DNA of 64,000 nucleotides from Spartobacteria bacterium (GTDB taxonomy: Bacteria > Verrucomicrobiota > Verrucomicrobiia > Chthoniobacterales > UBA10450). Location of the stretch: assembly GCA_003169975.1 (NCBI GenBank), contig PNAA01000034.1, forward strand, positions 62,001 through 126,000, read 5' to 3'. Below, in pieces: positions 35,386 through 46,428 of the stretch (position 1 is the first letter of the stretch; each line of letters begins with the position of its first letter). The translations under genes were made by a program, and so were the position numbers. The notes beneath the pieces are model-generated. The model made no database searches. It worked only from the letters and a program-made list of their open reading frames with translations, and had not been told where the DNA came from.

Positions 35386-36888
35386 CTATCCGAAGGAAGC
35401 AAGGATCCGCGCGACCAGTGTTCCCGGGATGATCCCGAGCAGGAGCACGGCGCCGGCGAGCACGAGCAGCGTCATCTTGGGCAGGTAATCGGCGCGCATC
35501 TCGAAATCGTAGCGAGCGACCGCCGGCGTGGCCTGCGCGTTTTCATCGAGAAAGATGACCTTGAGGACGATGAGGTAGTAATAAAGCGAGATCAGGCTGC
35601 CGAAGAGCGCGAGCGCGACGAGCCAGAGCAGGCCGTGATTTGCGCCGGCCCGCAGGGCGGTGCTGAAGAGATAAAACTTGCCGAAAAATCCGGCGAGCGG
35701 CGGAAGCCCCGCGAGCGAGAGCAGAAAGATCGCCATGCAGCCGGCAAGGAGCGGCGAGCGCGCGCGCAGCCCGGCGAAGTCGGCCAGGTCGTCGCCGCCA
35801 TTTTCACGCCTAACGAATCCAACAACACCAAAAGCCCCGACGAGCGTGACCGCGTAGATCGTCGTGTAAAAAAGCGTCGCGGAAAATCCGGCGCGGCCGC
35901 CCGCGATGAGTCCGAGCAAAGTGTAACCGCCATGGGCCACGGCTGAGTAGGCGAGCAGTCGACGAACATTTTTTTGCACGAGCGCGACGAGGTTGCCGAT
36001 GAGAATTGAGAGGGCGGAGAGGACCGCTAGGATCGGCGTCCAGCCGGCGATCAGCCCATGCCAGTCCGCGCTGCCCGATACCGGACCGAAGCCAATGAGG
36101 AGGATTTTCCCGAGGACGATGAAGGACGCGACCTTCGAGCCGGAAGCGATAAAACCGGCGGTCGAGACGGGCGCGCCCTGGTAGGCGTCCGGCGCCCAGA
36201 GATGAAAAGGCGCCGCTGCGATTTTGAAGAGGAACCCGATCAGGGTCATGACGATCCCGACGAAAAGCAGCGGCGGGAGAGCCTGCTCGGCGAGGCGCGG
36301 CCCGATCGCAGCCAGCGAAGTCGTGCCGGTGAAGCCATAGATAAGGCTCAGCCCGAAAAGCGTGAACGCGCTCGCCATGCTGCCGAAGAGGAAATATTTC
36401 AGGCCCGCTTCGGCCGAAGTCTGACTCGCTTTGTCGAACGCGGTCATGACGTAGAGCGAAAGCCCGGTCAGTTCGAGTCCGATGAAAATCATGAGCAGCT
36501 CTTCGCTTCCGATGAGGAGCATGAGCCCGACAGTGGCGAGCAGGATCATCGCGAGGTATTCGCCTTTGTTAGGCAAAAGTCGCTCGCCGCGCGCGAGAAT
36601 GACGGTGAAAAACGCCAGCACCAGAACGATCACCTGGAAAAGCGAATTGAGCGGCGAGACCACGAGCATCCCGTGAAAGAGCGTCGCGTGTCCGGGCAGC
36701 CTAACGATCGTGGCAGCGGCGATTGCCAGCCCCAGCGCCGCGACGAGTGCACCAAGTCCCGCTGTAGCGGCGGGCGTGTCGCCCGCTTCCCTTCGGCCCG
36801 TCACGAGCCCGATCGTCAAAACGACGAATGCCGTGAGCACAACGATCGCTTCCGGCGCGGCCAGTCGAAGAAGTTCCAGATAGCTCAT
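35386..36888 (-). CDS. nuoN: NADH-quinone oxidoreductase subunit N
   Basis: ATG 36888 (MSYLELLRLAAPEAIVVLTA) gives 500 residues and overlaps the nuoM stop by 4 bp (ATGA). It is an antiporter-like membrane subunit with about 13-14 helices. Conserved Glu and Lys of the proton path are visible in MIFIGLELTGLSLYVMTAFD (first Glu) and FGSMASAF/KIAAAPFHLWAPDAYQGAPV (Lys then His). The larger open frame to 37554 is only an upstream extension through nuoM. It ends the leftward nuo run, 15 bp from the end of the convergent DHOD-like gene. Confidence 0.93.
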   Translation of the reverse strand: MSYLELLRLAAPEAIVVLTAFVVLTIGLVTGRREAGDTPAATAGLGALVAALGLAIAAATIVRLPGHATLFHGMLVVSPLNSLFQVIVLVLAFFTVILARGERLLPNKGEYLAMILLATVGLMLLIGSEELLMIFIGLELTGLSLYVMTAFDKASQTSAEAGLKYFLFGSMASAFTLFGLSLIYGFTGTTSLAAIGPRLAEQALPPLLFVGIVMTLIGFLFKIAAAPFHLWAPDAYQGAPVSTAGFIASGSKVASFIVLGKILLIGFGPVSGSADWHGLIAGWTPILAVLSALSILIGNLVALVQKNVRRLLAYSAVAHGGYTLLGLIAGGRAGFSATLFYTTIYAVTLVGAFGVVGFVRRENGGDDLADFAGLRARSPLLAGCMAIFLLSLAGLPPLAGFFGKFYLFSTALRAGANHGLLWLVALALFGSLISLYYYLIVLKVIFLDENAQATPAVARYDFEMRADYLPKMTLLVLAGAVLLLGIIPGTLVARILASFG

Positions 36889-38342
36889 CGGTGTAAAAAC
36901 CGCATCGTTTCCACCGCCGGCATGATCCGGTCGAGGAGGAGCTTGGGATAAAGTCCGACCGCGAGCGTCGCGCAAATTAAGAGACTGGCGCCAAGCTTCT
37001 CCGCCAGGGTCGCCGCCCCGTTCGGCACCCGCGTTTCCTGCCGCACGCGCCCGCCCGTTTGATCGCCGAAGAATGATTTTTTCAACGCGCGCAGGGTAAA
37101 CGCTGCGACCAGCACCATCCCGAGGCCGGTGATTCCCACCGCCAACGGAAACGTTTTCCAGGCGCCAATCAGGATCGTGATTTCCGCCGCGAATCCGCTG
37201 AAACCGGGAATGCCCATGGAAGCGGCGGACGCGACCACGAACGCAAAAGTGATGAACGGCATCGTCCGGCTTAGGCCCATCAAGGAGAGGTCGTTCAGGT
37301 TGCGCGTGTGCGTCCGATAATAAACGGCGCCGGCGAGCGCGAAGAGGAGCGCGCCGATCACGCCGTGCGAGAACATTTGCAAAACCGCGCCCGAAACGCC
37401 GAGCACGTTGGCCGTGGCCAGCCCGAGCAGGACAAAGCCCATGTGACTCACGCTCGAGTAGCCAATGACGAACTTGAGGTCGTTCTGGCGCAGCGCGACC
37501 GCCGCCGCGTAAACGATCCCGATGACCGCGAGGACGGCGATCCATTTGCTCCACATCTGGAAGCCTAACGGAAAGAGATTAAGCGCGACGCGGAGCGCGC
37601 CGTAGGCGCCGAGCTTCATCACGATCCCGGCGAGCAACATCGAGCCGGCGGTCGGCGCGGCCACGTGACCGGTCGGCGCCCAGGTGTGGAACGGCCAGAT
37701 GCCGCCGAGGACCGCGAACCCGAGGAACAAGACCGGAAAGGCCCAGGCCTGGAGCTGCGGGGCGAATTGAAACTGCGTGAGCTGCAGCAAATCGAGTGTT
37801 CCCGCCGTCACGTAGGCGACGAGGATGCCGATGAAAACGAGCGCGCCGCCGAGGAAGGAATAGAGCGTCAGCTTCATCGCGCCGTATTCCTTGTTGGTCG
37901 AACCCCAGATCGCGATCAGGAAATATTTCGGCACGATCACCAGCTCGTAGAAGACGAAAAAGAGAAAGAGATCGGCGCTCAGGAAAACGCCGTACGAACC
38001 GGCGACGACGAGGAGCAACCAGAAAAAGAATTCGTTGGGCCGATTCTCGACTTTCCAGGAGAAAAGAACGGCGGCGAGCGCGGTCAGCCCGGTCACGAGC
38101 GTCATCGTCAGGCTGATCCCGTCGGCCGCGAGATGGTAATTCATCCCGAGCGCCGGCACCCAGGGCACGCGCACGATTGTGGTGAAATGCGCGAAATCGG
38201 TGTGTTGCGCGAAAAGCGCGGCCAGGCCGAGGCCGAACCCGCCCGCCGTGGCGACGAGCGCGACCCAGCGCGCCAGAATGCGCGGGAGAAGGAGCGCGAG
38301 AAGCGCGCCCGCCAAAGTGAGGTAAATCGTCCAGGCAATCAT
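36885..38342 (-). CDS. nuoM: NADH-quinone oxidoreductase subunit M, second copy
   Basis: The 485-residue antiporter-like subunit starts MIAWTIYLTLAGALLALLLP and shows FFVFYELVIVPKYFLIAIWG, GIWPFHTWAPTGHVAAPTAG and GYSSVSHMGFVLLGLATANV, typical for NuoM. The other NuoM (38961) is not identical, so it is an old paralogue. Its start overlaps the stop of the ORF6N gene by 4 bp and its stop overlaps nuoN. An extra NuoM occurs in some complex I forms and could add a pumping module. Confidence 0.92.
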   Translation of the reverse strand: MIAWTIYLTLAGALLALLLPRILARWVALVATAGGFGLGLAALFAQHTDFAHFTTIVRVPWVPALGMNYHLAADGISLTMTLVTGLTALAAVLFSWKVENRPNEFFFWLLLVVAGSYGVFLSADLFLFFVFYELVIVPKYFLIAIWGSTNKEYGAMKLTLYSFLGGALVFIGILVAYVTAGTLDLLQLTQFQFAPQLQAWAFPVLFLGFAVLGGIWPFHTWAPTGHVAAPTAGSMLLAGIVMKLGAYGALRVALNLFPLGFQMWSKWIAVLAVIGIVYAAAVALRQNDLKFVIGYSSVSHMGFVLLGLATANVLGVSGAVLQMFSHGVIGALLFALAGAVYYRTHTRNLNDLSLMGLSRTMPFITFAFVVASAASMGIPGFSGFAAEITILIGAWKTFPLAVGITGLGMVLVAAFTLRALKKSFFGDQTGGRVRQETRVPNGAATLAEKLGASLLICATLAVGLYPKLLLDRIMPAVETMRFLHR

Positions 38343-38950
38343 CGGCGTGAGCGCGTCCGGTAACGCGGGGATGTTTCGCGCACGTGGAATCCGATTTCGC
38401 GAGGCGGCTTGTTCGGCGGCGCGATCAACCGCCGGATCGCTTCAATAATCGCAGCGATCTCGTCGTCGTGTGCCCCGACCCGTTTTTCGAGTTCGGAAAA
38501 CTTTTGCGCCAACGCGCGGTTGGTCTCCAGCGCCTCGCGCCACCGGACAAAGGCGCACATGATCGCGATGTTCACCTTCACCGCGCGTTCGCTCCTCAGC
38601 ACGCTGAAGAGCATGGCCACGCCTTGTTCGGTAAAGGCGTAGAGCAAGTAGCTCTTGCCTCGGTGTTTACGTGAACTCATCACAATTTGTGATGAGTTCT
38701 TCTTCCCCGTTTTCGCGCCTTCCTCGGCTTGAGATATCACAGACTGTGATATCCTCTCAGCCTCTTCGGCAGAGATCTGACACATGAAATCAGCCGGAAA
38801 GCGGGATGCGCTTCGCTTCACCGCTTGATTGAGAACGCGCGTTTCAACCCCATAGAGGACAGCCAAGTCGAAATCGAGCAACACCTTCTGTCCGCGCAGT
38901 AGATGGATCGACTGCGCGATTTGGGTCGTCGAAATGATCTGTTTACTCAT
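38339..38950 (-). CDS. ORF6N-domain protein inside the nuo run
   Basis: The 203-residue product begins MSKQIISTTQIAQSIHLLRG and continues QKVLLDFDLAVLYGVETRVL, then FPADFMCQISAEEAERISQS and YLLYAFTEQGVAMLFSVLRS. This is the ORF6N DNA-binding-associated domain seen in phage antirepressors and mobile islands. A coiled-coil-like C-terminal part (LAQKFSELEKRVGAHDDEIA) follows. It overlaps the downstream nuoM start by 4 bp, and is 10 bp after the upstream nuoM stop, so it is translated within the operon. A role in complex I is not expected from the family. Confidence 0.88.
   Translation of the reverse strand: MSKQIISTTQIAQSIHLLRGQKVLLDFDLAVLYGVETRVLNQAVKRSASRFPADFMCQISAEEAERISQSVISQAEEGAKTGKKNSSQIVMSSRKHRGKSYLLYAFTEQGVAMLFSVLRSERAVKVNIAIMCAFVRWREALETNRALAQKFSELEKRVGAHDDEIAAIIEAIRRLIAPPNKPPREIGFHVRETSPRYRTRSRR
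38673..38753. promoter_or_regulatory. Two perfect palindromes with TGTGAT half-sites inside the ORF6N gene
   Basis: Site 1 (38673-38699) is gaactcatcacaa-t-ttgtgatgagttc with 13-base arms. Site 2 (38733-38753) is gatatcacag-a-ctgtgatatc with 10-base arms. Both place ATCACA facing TGTGAT and lie 33 bp apart within coding sequence. They could be binding sites for a repressor, possibly this gene's own product, or arise from the repeated ISQ/SSQ codons. Confidence 0.4.
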
Positions 38951-38960
38951 TTCAAGATAC

Positions 38961-40433
38961 TCAGCCTAACAACCGCGCCATCTGTGTGACGGTGCTGTTG
39001 AAGATGTGGAGAACGAACTGCGGGTAGAGGCCGACCGCGAACATGAGGAGCGTGACCGGGACGACGACCCACTTCTCGCCGAGGCGAAGATCAGGAAAGT
39101 TTCCGCAAGTATCCGCGAGCGGCCCGCTGAAGAGCGCCTGCATCGCACGCAGAAAAACAATCGCGGTGATGAGCAGACCGAGCACGGCCGCCGCGGTGTA
39201 GCCGGCGGCGAGCGCGAAGGAACCCTTGAAGATGAGGAATTCCCCGATGAAGCCGTTGAGGCCGGGCAAGCCTAATGACGAGAACATCGCCACGCTCATC
39301 CAGCCGCAGAGCAGCGGCGTGCGTTGCATCAATCCGCCGAAGTCGCCGAGCCCGCGCGCCCCGCGCCGTTCCTCGAGCAGTCCGACGAAATAGAAGAGCG
39401 CCGCGGCGGTCAGGCCGTGGTTGAAGATTTGCAGGAAGACCCCGCTCAAGGCCGCCTGCGCTTCGACCGCCGGGGCGGCCGTCGAAGCGGTCACCGCGAA
39501 GAGGCCGAGCATGCAGTAGCCGAGATGGTTGATCGAAAGGTAGGCGACCATCCGTTTCAAATCGGACTGCGCCCAGGCCGCGAGGGAGGCGAAAACGATC
39601 GAGCAAACCGCAAGCCCGAGGAGCCACGGTCCGACGATTCTGATTTCGTTAGGGAAAAGCGGGAGGAGGAGCCGGATGAAACCGTAGACGCCCATTTTCG
39701 AGAGCAGGCCGGTCAGGACCATCGAAGCGCCGGTGGGCGCGGTTTCGTAGGCGTCGGGCAGCCAGGTGTGAAAGGGAAAGATCGGCACCTTGACCGCGAG
39801 CCCGAGGAAAATGCCGGCGAAGGCGAGCCAACGGAGATTGCCGGTAAGCAATCCGGTTTTTCCGAGCACGGCCAGCTCCGCGAAATCGAACGTTCCCCTA
39901 ACGAAATAAATGTAAAGAAACGAGAGGAGGAGCGCGACGCTGCCGAGAAAGGTGTAGAGGAAAAACTTGGTCGCCGCGCGATCGCGCTTCTCGCCGCCCC
40001 AGATCCGGATGAGGAGGAACGCCGGGAGCAGGCTCATTTCGTAAAAGAGGAACCAGAGGACGAAATTCTGCGCGGTGAAGGTGCCGTAGAGCGCCGCCTG
40101 CGTCACGAGCATGATCGAATAAAAGCCGCGGCTCATGCGACCGGCGCAAAAGGCGAACGGGAAAATCAACGAAGTGAGGAGGACGAGCAGGAGGCTGAGG
40201 CCGTCGATCCCGGCGAGCGCTTGCGCACCGATCGCCGGAATCCAGACATGCTGCTGGATCATTTGCAGCGCCGGGTTGGCGGCGTCGAAGTGATGCCACA
40301 TTTCGAGGGCGAGACAGCCGGTGATGAAGCTGCAGCCGAGAGCGGCCGGGCGCGCCAGCCTCGGCGGGACGACGCTGAGAAAAAGCGCCCCGAGGAGGGG
40401 AATGAAAATCAGGCCGGTGATCAGGTGAGCCAT
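38961..40433 (-). CDS. nuoM: NADH-quinone oxidoreductase subunit M, first copy
   Basis: ATG 40433 (MAHLITGLIFIPLLGALFLS) gives 490 residues. Hallmarks are FLFYEMSLLPAFLLIRIWGG, VKVPIFPFHTWLPDAYETAP and HLGYCMLGLFAVTASTA. The frame stays open through nuoL to 42452, but similarity starts at this ATG. It overlaps the 3' end of nuoL by 13 bp. Five CCTAACG/TCGTTAGG words lie in this gene and its flanks. Confidence 0.93.
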   Translation of the reverse strand: MAHLITGLIFIPLLGALFLSVVPPRLARPAALGCSFITGCLALEMWHHFDAANPALQMIQQHVWIPAIGAQALAGIDGLSLLLVLLTSLIFPFAFCAGRMSRGFYSIMLVTQAALYGTFTAQNFVLWFLFYEMSLLPAFLLIRIWGGEKRDRAATKFFLYTFLGSVALLLSFLYIYFVRGTFDFAELAVLGKTGLLTGNLRWLAFAGIFLGLAVKVPIFPFHTWLPDAYETAPTGASMVLTGLLSKMGVYGFIRLLLPLFPNEIRIVGPWLLGLAVCSIVFASLAAWAQSDLKRMVAYLSINHLGYCMLGLFAVTASTAAPAVEAQAALSGVFLQIFNHGLTAAALFYFVGLLEERRGARGLGDFGGLMQRTPLLCGWMSVAMFSSLGLPGLNGFIGEFLIFKGSFALAAGYTAAAVLGLLITAIVFLRAMQALFSGPLADTCGNFPDLRLGEKWVVVPVTLLMFAVGLYPQFVLHIFNSTVTQMARLLG

Positions 40434-42394
40434 GCGTAAAGAAAGAGAAGCGCGAGCATGCCCACGGCGATGACGCTGAGGTAAATCTGGACCTGGCCCG
40501 AGTGGCGCGCGGAAACGAAGCGGCCGAGAGCACGCGTCACCCCGGTGGCATCGTCGACCCCGGCGTTGATCCCGCGCTCGTCCAAGCTTTTCGTTAGGCC
40601 GCCGAAGAGCCGGCCCAGCCCGCCGCAAAGCCGGACGAGGCCGTCCCAAAAATAGCGATCGAGAAAATCGGATAGCCGGGCGGCGAAACGCGCCCAGCCG
40701 AGAATCGTCCGGTCGTAGAGTTCGTCCAGCCACATCCGGTTTTCGAGAAAACGAAAGAGCGCGGGAAGCGTTCGCTCGATCGGATCGATCTCGCTCGCCC
40801 GGCGATAGAGCAGGATTCCCAATCCAATCCCCGCCGCGACGAGCGCGAGCGCGAAGTAGAGCATCGGCTGAATGAGGAGCGAGAAATTGTAGGTCGCGCG
40901 CTCGCCGGACAAATAATCGTGCAGCCACGGCCAAGCCGGAGTGAGCACGACGCTGAAACCGACCGCGCAGACCGCGAGCACGATCAGGGGAAGCATCATG
41001 ACCGGTGGGCTCTCGTGCGCGTGCGCGGCGGCGGCGCGCCGATCGCCGAAGAAGACGTAGATCATTTGCCGCGTCATGTAGAGCGCGGTCAGGACGACCC
41101 CGGCGAGCATCAGGTAATGCGGCACCCGCGACGGCGACCACTGCGAGGTCGCGTGCAGGATTTCCTCCTTCGTCCAGGCGCCGGCGAAAAAGAGCGGCAC
41201 GCCGCTCAGCGCCAGCATGCCGATGGCGTAGGTGAAAAAGGTCACGGGCATGAGCCCGCGCAAACCACCCATCCGGCGGATGTCCTGTTCCTCGTGGCAG
41301 CCGTGAATGACGGAACCGGAGCCGAGGAAAAGGAGCGCCTTGAAGAAACCGTGCGCGAGCAGATGCATGATGCCAGCGGCCACTCCGCCCACGCCTAACG
41401 ACACCATCATGAGGCCGAGCTGCGAGACGGTCGAGTAGGCGAGAATGCGCTTGATGTCCGGCTGGGCGAGCGCAATCAGAGCGGAGATGAGCGCGGTGAT
41501 CACGCCGATCCAGACCACGACGGTGAGCGAAGGCGTGACCCCATTGATCGCGCCTAACGAAAAGAGGGGATAGACCCGCGCGACCAGGAAAACACCGGCC
41601 GCGACCATCGTGGCCGCATGGATGAGGGCGCTCACCGGCGTCGGACCTTCCATCGCGTCCGGCAACCAGACGTGGAGCGGGAATTGCCCCGACTTCCCCG
41701 CGGCGCCACAGAAAATCAAAAGCGCGATGAAGGTGGCGCTCGTGCCTAACGAGAGCAAACCGACACTTTCGAGGGCCCCGGTCCCGCCGTCGTAAAAGAG
41801 GAGCGTGCCGCTCCGGCCGTAGAGCCAGAGGATCCCGAGAAAGAAACCGATGTCGCCGATGCGCGTGGTGATGAACGCCTTCTTCGCGGCCGCCGCCGCG
41901 CTCGGTTTGTGAATCCAAAAACCAATCAGGAGATAGGACGCGAGCCCGACCAATTCCCAACAGACGAAAAGCAGGAGCAGACTGTTGGCGATGACCACCC
42001 CGAGCATCGCGGCGGAGAAAAACGAGAGATAGGCGAAGAAGCGGGTGAAATTCCTGTCCGCCGCCATGTAGCCGACGCTGAAAACAAAAATGCAAAGACT
42101 GACCAGCGTGATCATGACGAGCATGACCGCCGCGAGCGGATCGAGGACAAAACCAATCCGGAGCGCTTGTTCGCCAAAGGCGAACCAGGTGAAATTTTGG
42201 AAGACGCGGTAACCGGGCGTCTGCAAGGTCGGCCAGAAAGCGCCGAGCGAGAGCAGGAGCGCGATCACCTGCCCGGCGATCGCGAATCCGGCCGCGGCCG
42301 CGCGCTGCACGTTCGTTAGGCTGAGAATGACAAACGAGGCCGCGAGCGGCACCGCGGGAATCAGCCAAAGATGAGCGACGATCGAGGTGCTCAT
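40421..42394 (-). CDS. nuoL: NADH-quinone oxidoreductase subunit L
   Basis: The 657-residue largest antiporter-like subunit starts MSTSIVAHLWLIPAVPLAAS. Motifs: FVCWELVGLASYLLIGFWIH, KSGQFPLHVWLPDAMEGPTP, HAATMVAAGVFLVARVYPLF and a long lateral helix at the C terminus (LDERGINAGVDDATGVTRAL). It overlaps nuoK by 4 bp (ATGA) and nuoM by 13 bp. Several loops carry the rare TTA leucine codon inside a TCGTTAGGC word (SLGVGG, SLGAIN, SLGTSA). Confidence 0.95.
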   Translation of the reverse strand: MSTSIVAHLWLIPAVPLAASFVILSLTNVQRAAAAGFAIAGQVIALLLSLGAFWPTLQTPGYRVFQNFTWFAFGEQALRIGFVLDPLAAVMLVMITLVSLCIFVFSVGYMAADRNFTRFFAYLSFFSAAMLGVVIANSLLLLFVCWELVGLASYLLIGFWIHKPSAAAAAKKAFITTRIGDIGFFLGILWLYGRSGTLLFYDGGTGALESVGLLSLGTSATFIALLIFCGAAGKSGQFPLHVWLPDAMEGPTPVSALIHAATMVAAGVFLVARVYPLFSLGAINGVTPSLTVVVWIGVITALISALIALAQPDIKRILAYSTVSQLGLMMVSLGVGGVAAGIMHLLAHGFFKALLFLGSGSVIHGCHEEQDIRRMGGLRGLMPVTFFTYAIGMLALSGVPLFFAGAWTKEEILHATSQWSPSRVPHYLMLAGVVLTALYMTRQMIYVFFGDRRAAAAHAHESPPVMMLPLIVLAVCAVGFSVVLTPAWPWLHDYLSGERATYNFSLLIQPMLYFALALVAAGIGLGILLYRRASEIDPIERTLPALFRFLENRMWLDELYDRTILGWARFAARLSDFLDRYFWDGLVRLCGGLGRLFGGLTKSLDERGINAGVDDATGVTRALGRFVSARHSGQVQIYLSVIAVGMLALLFLYAWLT

Positions 42395-42708: not shown

Positions 42709-43187
42709 CGTTTCTCCTCCAGGACGAGCACGAGGGCGCCAATCAAGGCGGCGGTCAGCAGCAGACCGACGCATTGCAGCGGCCAGACGTAATCGCTCAT
42801 GAGCGCTTCGCCGATTTGCCGGACGGTTACGGTCACCCCCGGTTGCGCCGCGACGTAAAGCGCGGGGGTCCGCATGATCGCCCAAAGCAAAGCGGCCAGC
42901 ACCGCGAGCGCGATCACGACTCCGCTCCAGTTGAAACCGCGATTCTCATCCGTCCCGTGGCGGGTGAGCAAGATGGTGAAAACGATCAGGACCGCGACCG
43001 CGCCGACGTAGACAAAGACCTGGACGAGGCCGACGAATTCCGCGCCTAACAAAAAGTAAAAGGCGGCGACACCGACCAGCGCGACCGCGAAACTGAGCGC
43101 GGCATGAACGAGCTGCCGCAAGCACGCCGCCGCGACGGCCGCACTGAGGGTGAGGACCGCGATGAAAAAGAAAGCGGCGCTGTTCAT
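42705..43187 (-). CDS. nuoJ: NADH-quinone oxidoreductase subunit J
   Basis: The 160-residue five-helix membrane subunit starts MNSAAFFFIAVLTLSAAVAA and has GAEFVGLVQVFVYVGAVAVL then IVFTILLTRH, the V-Y-V-G-A-V-x-V-L pi-bulge helix of NuoJ. It overlaps nuoH by 4 bp and nuoK by 4 bp. Confidence 0.94.
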   Translation of the reverse strand: MNSAAFFFIAVLTLSAAVAAACLRQLVHAALSFAVALVGVAAFYFLLGAEFVGLVQVFVYVGAVAVLIVFTILLTRHGTDENRGFNWSGVVIALAVLAALLWAIMRTPALYVAAQPGVTVTVRQIGEALMSDYVWPLQCVGLLLTAALIGALVLVLEEKR

Positions 43188-44371
43188 TCGGCAAAACGAT
43201 AGGTGCGCGGGGCAAATTTCTTCCCGACCCCGAGGACACGGGAGAGCGTGAGGTAGACGAGCACGATCCAGCCTAACGACCAGAGCGAACCGCTGAGGCG
43301 CCTTCCCTGGTAATGCCAGATCGCCGCCGCGATGACGCAGGTAAACGCCATCGGGAGCATGAATTTCCAGGCGAAGCTCATCATCTGGTCGACCCGGATG
43401 CGCGGGAGGGTGCCGCGAATCCAGATGAAAACGAAAAGCAGCACGCCGAGCTTGAGGAAAAACCAGAGGTAGGACGGAACGAACTGCAGCACGCTGAACG
43501 GCGCGTGCCAGCCACCGAGGAAGAGCGTCACCGCCAGCCCGCTGACGGCGAACATCCCGAAATATTCCGCGAGAAAAAAGATGGCGTACTTGAAACCGGA
43601 GTATTCGGTCATGTGGCCGGCGACGATTTCCGATTCGCCCTCCGGCACGTCGAAGGGCGTGCGGTTCGATTCCACCAGGCCCGAGACGAAAAAAAGGATG
43701 AAGGCGACCGCGCCCCAGGGCGTGAAGACGAACCAGTGCGGCAGAATGCCTAACGAGTAACCGCCCTGTGCGGCGACGATCGCGTCGGGCGTGAGCGAGC
43801 CGGTCACCATCACCACCGGCAAAACGGTAATGATAAGCGGCAGCTCGTAGCTCACCATCTGCGCGATCGCGCGCATCGCGCCGAGCATGGAAAACTTGTT
43901 GTTGCTCCCCCAGCCGGCCATGAAAACGCCGACCTCGTTAGTCGACCCGACAGCGAAGAAAAAGAGGATGCCGCCGTCGATCGTAAAGGGCGTCATGTTG
44001 CGGCCGTAGGGAATGATGCCGAGTGCGAGGATGGCCGCAGCGGCGATCAGGATCGGGGCAAGGAAGTGGACGACCTTGTCGGCGCGCGCGGGCACGATGT
44101 CTTCCTTGATCAACATCTTGATCCCGTCGGCGACCGGCTGGAGAAGACCGAAAGGGCCGACGCGATTGGGCCCGTAGCGATTCTGGATGCGGGCAAGGAT
44201 TTTCCGCTCGAACAACGACATGAGGGCGAAGAGCGTAAGAAAGACGGCGAGCAGCGCACTGATATTGAGCAGGCTGGAGGCGATCTGGCCGACCCAGTCC
44301 GGCGCGCCGGCAAGGAACGAGAGAAGCCATTGTTTCCCAAGGACGAAAATCTGGTCGAGAAAACCGCTCAC
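43184..44371 (-). CDS. nuoH: NADH-quinone oxidoreductase subunit H
   Basis: The start is uncertain. GTG 44371 (VSGFLDQIFVLGKQWLLSFL) gives 395 residues; a longer form from ATG 44449 would add 26. Signature text: FERKILARIQNRYGPNRVGP, LKEDIVPARADK-like MLIKEDIVPARADKVVHFLA, the quinone-site loop ESNRTPFDVPEGESEIVAGH and IRGTLPRIRVDQMMSFAWKF. It is the first gene of the leftward run nuoH-J-K-L-M, and no nuoI lies between H and J because nuoI is in the rightward run. Confidence 0.93.
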   Translation of the reverse strand: MSGFLDQIFVLGKQWLLSFLAGAPDWVGQIASSLLNISALLAVFLTLFALMSLFERKILARIQNRYGPNRVGPFGLLQPVADGIKMLIKEDIVPARADKVVHFLAPILIAAAAILALGIIPYGRNMTPFTIDGGILFFFAVGSTNEVGVFMAGWGSNNKFSMLGAMRAIAQMVSYELPLIITVLPVVMVTGSLTPDAIVAAQGGYSLGILPHWFVFTPWGAVAFILFFVSGLVESNRTPFDVPEGESEIVAGHMTEYSGFKYAIFFLAEYFGMFAVSGLAVTLFLGGWHAPFSVLQFVPSYLWFFLKLGVLLFVFIWIRGTLPRIRVDQMMSFAWKFMLPMAFTCVIAAAIWHYQGRRLSGSLWSLGWIVLVYLTLSRVLGVGKKFAPRTYRFAE

Positions 44372-46045
<1,674 letters not shown>

Positions 46046-46053
46046 CCGCACGG

Positions 46054-46428
46054 ATGATGCCGGATCCTTATTTCTTTCTCGTCATTTTTGGCGCGGTCGC
46101 CTTCGTCTTCCCGGTCATGCCTCTGGCCCTGGCCTGGCTCTGGCGGCGTTTCTTTCAACCGCCCAAGCCGGGGGCGGGGAAAAATGCAACCTACGAATGC
46201 GGTGTTGAGTCGTTAGGCGAGGCGCAGATTCAGTTCCACTCGCATTATTATCTCTACGCGATCATCTTTTTGATTTTCGACGTCGAGGCGATTTTCCTCG
46301 TGCCCTTTGCGGTCGCATTTACCGGGTTGCCCTTCGGCGCGTTCATCGCGATTTTGGTCTTCCTCCTTCTCCTGCTGGAAGGGCTGGTTTGGGCCTGGGG
46401 CAAAGGGTGTTTAAGTTGGGTGAAGTAA
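46054..46428 (+). CDS. nuoA: NADH-quinone oxidoreductase subunit A
   Basis: ATG 46054 gives 124 residues. It has three membrane helices and the conserved loop [20 protein letters not shown] then [20 protein letters not shown]. It is 8 bp after gdhA, and its stop shares a base with the nuoB ATG (TAATG). A TCGTTAGGC word encodes the ESLGEA turn. Confidence 0.94.

Follow-up and report, generated by a model that had tools for sequence, protein, structure and literature searches.

The window analyzed here, a stretch of 64,000 nucleotides from a Spartobacteria bacterium, carries on its minus strand nuoH, nuoJ, nuoL, nuoM, an ORF6N gene, nuoM and nuoN, in that order (Table 1). The ORF6N gene starts with ATG, is uninterrupted by stops in an open reading frame check and encodes a protein whose residues 14-117 score 93.4 bits against the Pfam PF10543 cut-off of 27.8. 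The original prediction had described a 203-amino acid ORF6N gene in the direction of its neighbors, 10 bp past one nuoM and overlapping the next by 4 bp, and both the coordinates and the Pfam assignment agree. It had also assigned the ORF6N family to mobile elements; members are indeed found in phages and plasmids, as well as in chromosomes. No prophage or phage location was found for the copy in the window, which has nuo genes on both sides here and in relatives. The packing is operon-like: the ORF6N stop and the nuoM2 start overlap by 4 nt in 21 of 32 intact copies and by 1 nt in 4 more. Two perfect palindromes within the gene had been overlooked.

Table 1. Positions in the window of the ORF6N gene, its internal features and its nuo neighbors (-, minus strand).
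Feature	Position	Strand	Basis or remark
nuoL	40421..42394	-	Pfam PF00361 + PF00662
nuoM1 (first nuoM)	38961..40433	-	Pfam PF00361, E = 7.4e-66, scanned as 38961-40439; start set at the ATG of MAHLITG
ORF6N gene, 203 aa	38339..38950	-	Pfam PF10543, E = 1e-26
Predicted helix-turn-helix, residues 26-46	38813..38875	-	AF2 model m4f93ca25a53a + mutual information
Intragenic palindrome A, 21 bp, center 38743	38733..38753	.	Codes for residues 66-73
Intragenic palindrome B, 27 bp, center 38686	38673..38699	.	Codes for residues 84-93
nuoM2 (second nuoM)	36885..38342	-	Pfam PF00361, E = 1.6e-62
nuoN	35386..36888	-	Pfam PF00361, E = 1.2e-64; named from its position in the nuo run

The nuo set of the window is split, since nuoH and nuoJ to nuoN lie on the minus strand and a nuoA-like gene (PF00507; region 43184-46428) lies on the plus strand, directly after an ORF at 44660-46045 that resembles glutamate dehydrogenase. 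The heptamer CCTAACG occurs 43 times in the window (31 plus, 12 minus; sites 469 to 61815) against 3.3 expected, a count matched by none of 100 shuffles. The genomes with the nearest nuoM2 genes carry the names Chthoniobacterales, Spartobacteria and Udaeobacter, which marks the genome as a Chthoniobacterales relative. The term 2M complex I (PMC9040806) denotes a complex I that has two NuoM subunits, and the window likewise has a tandem pair of nuoM genes, with nuoL on one side and nuoN on the other; the Chthoniobacterales family differs by an ORF6N gene between the nuoM pair.

The original prediction regarded the gene as an odd, perhaps unique insertion. ORF6N sequence was found at the nuoM1-nuoM2 junction in 48 of the 63 Chthoniobacterales-family genomes examined: 32 carried an intact gene, 12 a truncated or broken one and 4 a copy at a contig end, whereas 12 had none and 3 were undecidable. 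These 63 were the scorable ones among 83 family genomes, the other 20 having no usable nuoM2 match or lying at contig ends. Absence here means no tblastn match at 1e-3, and at least one such genome (G062) retains a recognizable remnant with a palindrome. Five further contigs carried ORF6N in pieces (G006), intact (G061), as a contig-end partial (G045 and G067) or as a fragment (G056). Overall, 11 of 14 genera have ORF6N at the junction, or 12 of 14 counting G006. Because the same nuoM-ORF6N-nuoM junction is found in many independently assembled genomes, an assembly error at the join is very unlikely.

A NuoM2 tree built from 83 rows recovers the family as a single clade; ORF6N presence changes on it at least 9 times among 55 scorable family rows and 10 times in all. 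This fits an old single gain with repeated losses, although the number of changes by itself cannot separate gain from loss. The nuo copies of ORF6N form almost one clade as well, in that the smallest clade with 32 of the 33 includes two other rows, one of which (L262) itself precedes nuoM2. Apart from the variable middle, the gene shows purifying selection, with a median omega of 0.133 (200 pairs with dS < 2, of 406; pairs non-independent) compared to 0.109 for NuoM2. Thus neither absence from close relatives nor a lack of purifying selection, as expected of a recently inserted mobile gene, was observed, and a recent or unique insertion is rejected on the basis of the junction survey, the NuoM2 tree and omega together. 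The order that the original prediction would have accepted as evidence against itself if shared by distant genomes under selection is shared throughout the family and not beyond it: ORF6N is missing between the nuoM genes at all 23 loci from outside the family, which make up the more distant portion of the 80 loci examined. In 13 of those 23 the gap between the nuoM genes is -1 to -7, and these genes therefore overlap. ORF6N would have entered the tandem nuoM junction in the common ancestor of the family and then been kept by selection. It is nevertheless dispensable in nuo, as the 12 genomes without it indicate.

Other sequences also occupy this junction. At six loci (L065, L082, L086, L113, L066, L074) other genes accompany or substitute the ORF6N insert, namely one family of 209-aa membrane proteins and an M23-peptidase-like protein of 387 aa, whole or as a remnant (names assigned by eye), and the junction thus looks like an insertion hotspot. 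At seven (L071, L077, L082, L084, L085, L087, L111) truncated ORF6N genes run into what is apparently one shared repeat, translated GERTRL...GHARRVCSP and perhaps a MITE.

Other energy operons also harbor ORF6N genes. By Pfam, they lie between atpA and atpG in G067, G023, G029 and the distant G322, and the same AtpG start lies downstream of ORF6N in four more family genomes (G015, G060, G078, G058). Similarly, G094 has one between nuoF and nuoG, and G199 has two ahead of nuoG. The loci of these atpA/atpG- and nuoF/nuoG-embedded genes are L188, L194, L208 and L263, and L287 and L247, respectively. Upstream of ORF6N in L232 is hsdM. Flanks were available for 173 other loci, including one later recognized as a nuo copy. 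In 77 of them a same-strand ORF of 100 aa or more begins within -25 to +40 bp of the ORF6N stop, and 72 have a close upstream ORF; these ORFs were called mechanically and have no control set. In an Akkermansiaceae locus (L135, 9161-9742) an ORF6N gene of the shifted-reading-frame type, judged by its peptide, follows nuoN and precedes an ORF resembling a McrB-type ATPase (named by eye).

To place the palindromes of the window in context, we collected ORF6N genes from plasmids, from the Chthoniobacterales family and the phylum it belongs to, and from the phylum represented by a second genome, G320, which is titled Acidobacteria. Of 199 genes, one shorter than 300 nt was dropped, as were six that belong to a divergent DQLGL type and lack the middle region, which left 192. 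A palindrome was accepted when it lay between the helix region and the FTE motif with a net arm score of at least 7. A palindrome of 15-29 bp is present in the middle of the coding sequence in 177 of the 192 genes; the other 15 have no strong one. Stretches of equal length further downstream in the same genes contained a palindrome in 2 of 173 cases, and in whole-gene scoring 39 of 66 family genes exceed every one of 200 recodings each. Individual genes have one to three palindromes, and copies within one gene can differ (e.g. in G043), for which a single specificity gives no simple account. Furthermore, 6 of the 12 degraded nuo copies, which are truncated or internally deleted (G005, G017, G025, G041, G053, G060), retain a palindrome with a score of 13 or 14.

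The palindrome arms vary in sequence yet remain complementary. Among 211 palindromes, viral genes included, pairs 4, 5 and 8 to 13 are Watson-Crick in 82-98% of cases, against 34-59% expected for independent arms; for pair 4 the values are 97% and 37%. A by-product of a conserved peptide motif, with selection acting on the protein only, could in principle produce a recurrent palindrome, as the motif sits in the ORF6N domain and palindrome A falls within a predicted helix (residues 61-81). When all amino acids were kept and codons replaced synonymously, however, the palindrome survived in 82 of 3840 recodings (2.1%) compared to 92% of real genes, and the 211 palindromes comprise 87 distinct 15-mers. 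The palindrome is read in one frame in 165 genes and in another in 11. The core CTGGTCACAAnTTGTGAC translates as NWSQIVTSS in nuo copies and, one frame over, as the unrelated ELVTNCDRF in other copies. When both arms change jointly, the frame yields the alternative peptides SQxV, SQxA, FQxG and CQxG. The same DNA read in two different frames indicates that the conserved entity is the DNA and not the peptide. This refutes the strict peptide-only explanation, and we regard the explanation as having a negligible chance of being correct.

An RNA hairpin in the mRNA, serving attenuation, processing or translation control, is a second alternative. In the transcript, as many as about 12 pairs could form a stem closed by a 3-nt loop, and the innermost pair shows no excess complementarity (0.69 observed, 0.69 expected among the 211 palindromes), which is how a loop would behave. 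Since arm mismatches of the A-C type (38) are more common than those of the G-U type (17), the pattern argues against a hairpin. A hairpin also makes no prediction about the pairing of bases with helix residues described below, and this disfavored reading is highly improbable in our view.

Mutual information between protein columns and palindrome bases was calculated for 176 genes, after removal of one spurious palindrome (L338), with bases numbered from the center. At base 4, residue 42 explains 81% of the entropy and residue 39 explains 64%; at base 7, residue 38 explains 68%, and at bases 9-12 residues 97-101 explain up to about half. The median over 156 columns is about 0.02, and the remaining high columns are mostly in the stretch encoded by the palindrome itself. 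For residue 42 the relation reduces to a rule (Q with A, E with G, R or K with C) that describes 164 of 171 genes, including 31 of 31 nuo copies, in the same gene set on which it was found. The seven exceptions are three genes with R39 and Q42 that share TG and form a class of their own, two with a fitting second palindrome and two others. In ordinary base-contact chemistry Gln pairs with A, Arg or Lys with G, and Glu with C, and by this analogy the residue 42 code would be of the ordinary kind.

The rule was later tested on ORF6N genes from viral contigs, of which 35 of 43 distinct genes have a palindrome and 8 lack one; a scan of viral contigs with the window protein alone as query gave no match. 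The residue 42 rule was right in 35 of 35, and at base 7 K38 went with G in 12 of 12 whereas other residues went with A in 22 of 23. Additionally, we counted phylogenetically independent pairs on a tree computed without the helix and palindrome columns. Nearly all of the data are metagenome assemblies, and many of the sequences are related. The Q42-A association changed the same way in 14.8 and the opposite way in 0.3 of 16 pairs (p = 6e-5), with corresponding values of 9.8 and 0.3 of 12 for E42 (p = 0.002), 8.0 and 0 of 9 for R/K42 (p = 0.008), and 11.1 and 0 of 15 for K38 with G at base 7 (p = 0.001). All 18 control columns in this test gave p > 0.05, the strongest being position 43, adjoining residue 42, with a weak trend (5.6 same, 0.6 opposite, p = 0.07).

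The residues concerned coincide with a candidate recognition helix. An AF2 prediction from 57 sequences places helices at 26-33 and 37-46, with blocks of residues 11-60 at pLDDT 91-93, so that residues 38-42 lie with high confidence in the second helix of a predicted helix-turn-helix; residues 81-100 are poorly defined in the model. Neither sequence nor fold gave a significant match to a solved structure, the best fold match (Z 5.8) being under the trust level of that tool. Among viral predicted structures the best matches of the model are KilA-N and antirepressor proteins. Nearly all of the ORF6N genes examined contain a palindromic site that matches the predicted recognition helix of their own product.

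Could the link between helix and palindrome reflect no more than inheritance or exchange as a block, with another protein, or none, binding the site? Some linkage is expected because the two lie about 70-140 bp apart in one gene, and cassettes do appear to have been exchanged. The signal, however, is confined to columns 38, 39 and 42 and the loop at 96-101, and neighboring variable columns lack it. Moreover, the independent pairs agree, the control columns stay below significance and the rule held in new, viral data. We therefore consider linkage alone very unlikely as an explanation.

An exact search of the 4.47-Mb genome found ATCACANNNTGTGAT in 2 places, both within the ORF6N gene of the window. 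The core of the two other ORF6N genes of this genome, GGTCGCANNNTGCGACC, was found in 4 places, all inside those two genes. For these two patterns there are no other exact matches in the genome. Across the larger set, the exact core of a gene was absent from the flanks of 174 of 177 genes in 523 kb searched, in which a degenerate site would be missed, and present in those of 3, in one case about 50 bp upstream. By exact core, then, a promoter-proximal site is not the usual arrangement. None of 20 within-genome paralog pairs shares a half-site, which shows nothing about paralog orthogonality because only about 0.6 was expected from the 3.1% over all pairs.

From the match of helix and palindrome we infer that the ORF6N protein, probably a helix-turn-helix dimer, binds to between one and three palindromes within the sequence that encodes it. 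Binding to the palindrome in its own gene is, on sequence grounds, very probable. The most likely consequence would be that bound protein hinders RNA polymerase within the gene and so exerts negative feedback; the position of the site makes such feedback on ORF6N expression likely. With the operator inside the reading frame, control would be portable between operons, because the operator travels with the gene into any operon it enters. A coding sequence that contains a palindrome matched to its own protein makes ORF6N look like a portable self-regulating gene. In nuo, ORF6N would limit its own expression and perhaps tune or damp the distal nuoM2 and nuoN. As a counterpoint, a roadblock at this position in nuo should lower nuoM2 and nuoN transcription. 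Taken as a whole, a gene addressed to its own intragenic palindromes, most likely for negative feedback, and kept in nuo since the common ancestor is the reading we think probable.

Binding of the protein to its palindrome might instead serve mobility, recombination, copy exclusion or segregation. Plasmids, phages and many chromosomal places harbor ORF6N genes, tandem copies and copy-plus-fragment arrays are seen at the nuoM1-nuoM2 junction, and a site-specific integrase adjoins 2 of the 11 plasmid genes whose neighbors were read. In contrast, the other 9 have no recombinase alongside, and the nuo copies are nearly one clade and stay put. On balance such a role appears unlikely, and transcriptional feedback remains our preferred account. 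A wider form of that account, which we offer tentatively and with some doubt, is that ORF6N genes are widespread operon-embedded governors with a private in-frame operator and a simple co-evolving code, recruited to nuoM-nuoM, nuoF-nuoG and atpA-atpG, where the output of the transcript itself would throttle the genes behind it.

The proposed arrangement has partial precedents. ORF6N (PF10543) proteins are kin of the KilA-N or Bro-N phage antirepressors; the window protein exceeds the Pfam cut-off and its model resembles these proteins, but its gene, unlike those of phage antirepressors, has no surrounding prophage and is passed on within a respiratory operon. Bacterial autorepressors whose own gene contains an operator include E. 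coli purR, a dimeric helix-turn-helix protein with a palindromic operator, and such sites can lie past the promoter. ORF6N resembles purR in its helix-turn-helix, palindrome and control of its own gene, with dimerization, binding and control as predictions. In contrast to purR, nearly all members of the family have the ORF6N site far inside the coding sequence; its specificity shifts frequently, and copies beyond the gene are rare. The lac O2 and gal OI sites also lie inside coding sequences, although these belong to target genes and not to the repressor's own gene as in ORF6N.

No description of the ORF6N palindrome or of its residue-to-base code was found in the literature searched, from which subscription journals were largely absent. 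Nor did that literature yield an earlier mechanistic hypothesis for ORF6N proteins, and the one presented here would be the first. A repressor and its operator are normally separate pieces of DNA. In ORF6N, one stretch appears to encode the protein and also, by prediction, to serve as its binding site; this applies to nearly all of the 192 chromosomal and plasmid members and to most of the 43 genes from viral contigs. The genes thereby form a natural collection of matched protein-site pairs with a residue-to-base code that is testable via single changes, and may be a source of mutually independent regulators. Self-regulation of this kind would explain how a phage-type gene has persisted in an essential operon through the whole history of a family of soil bacteria.
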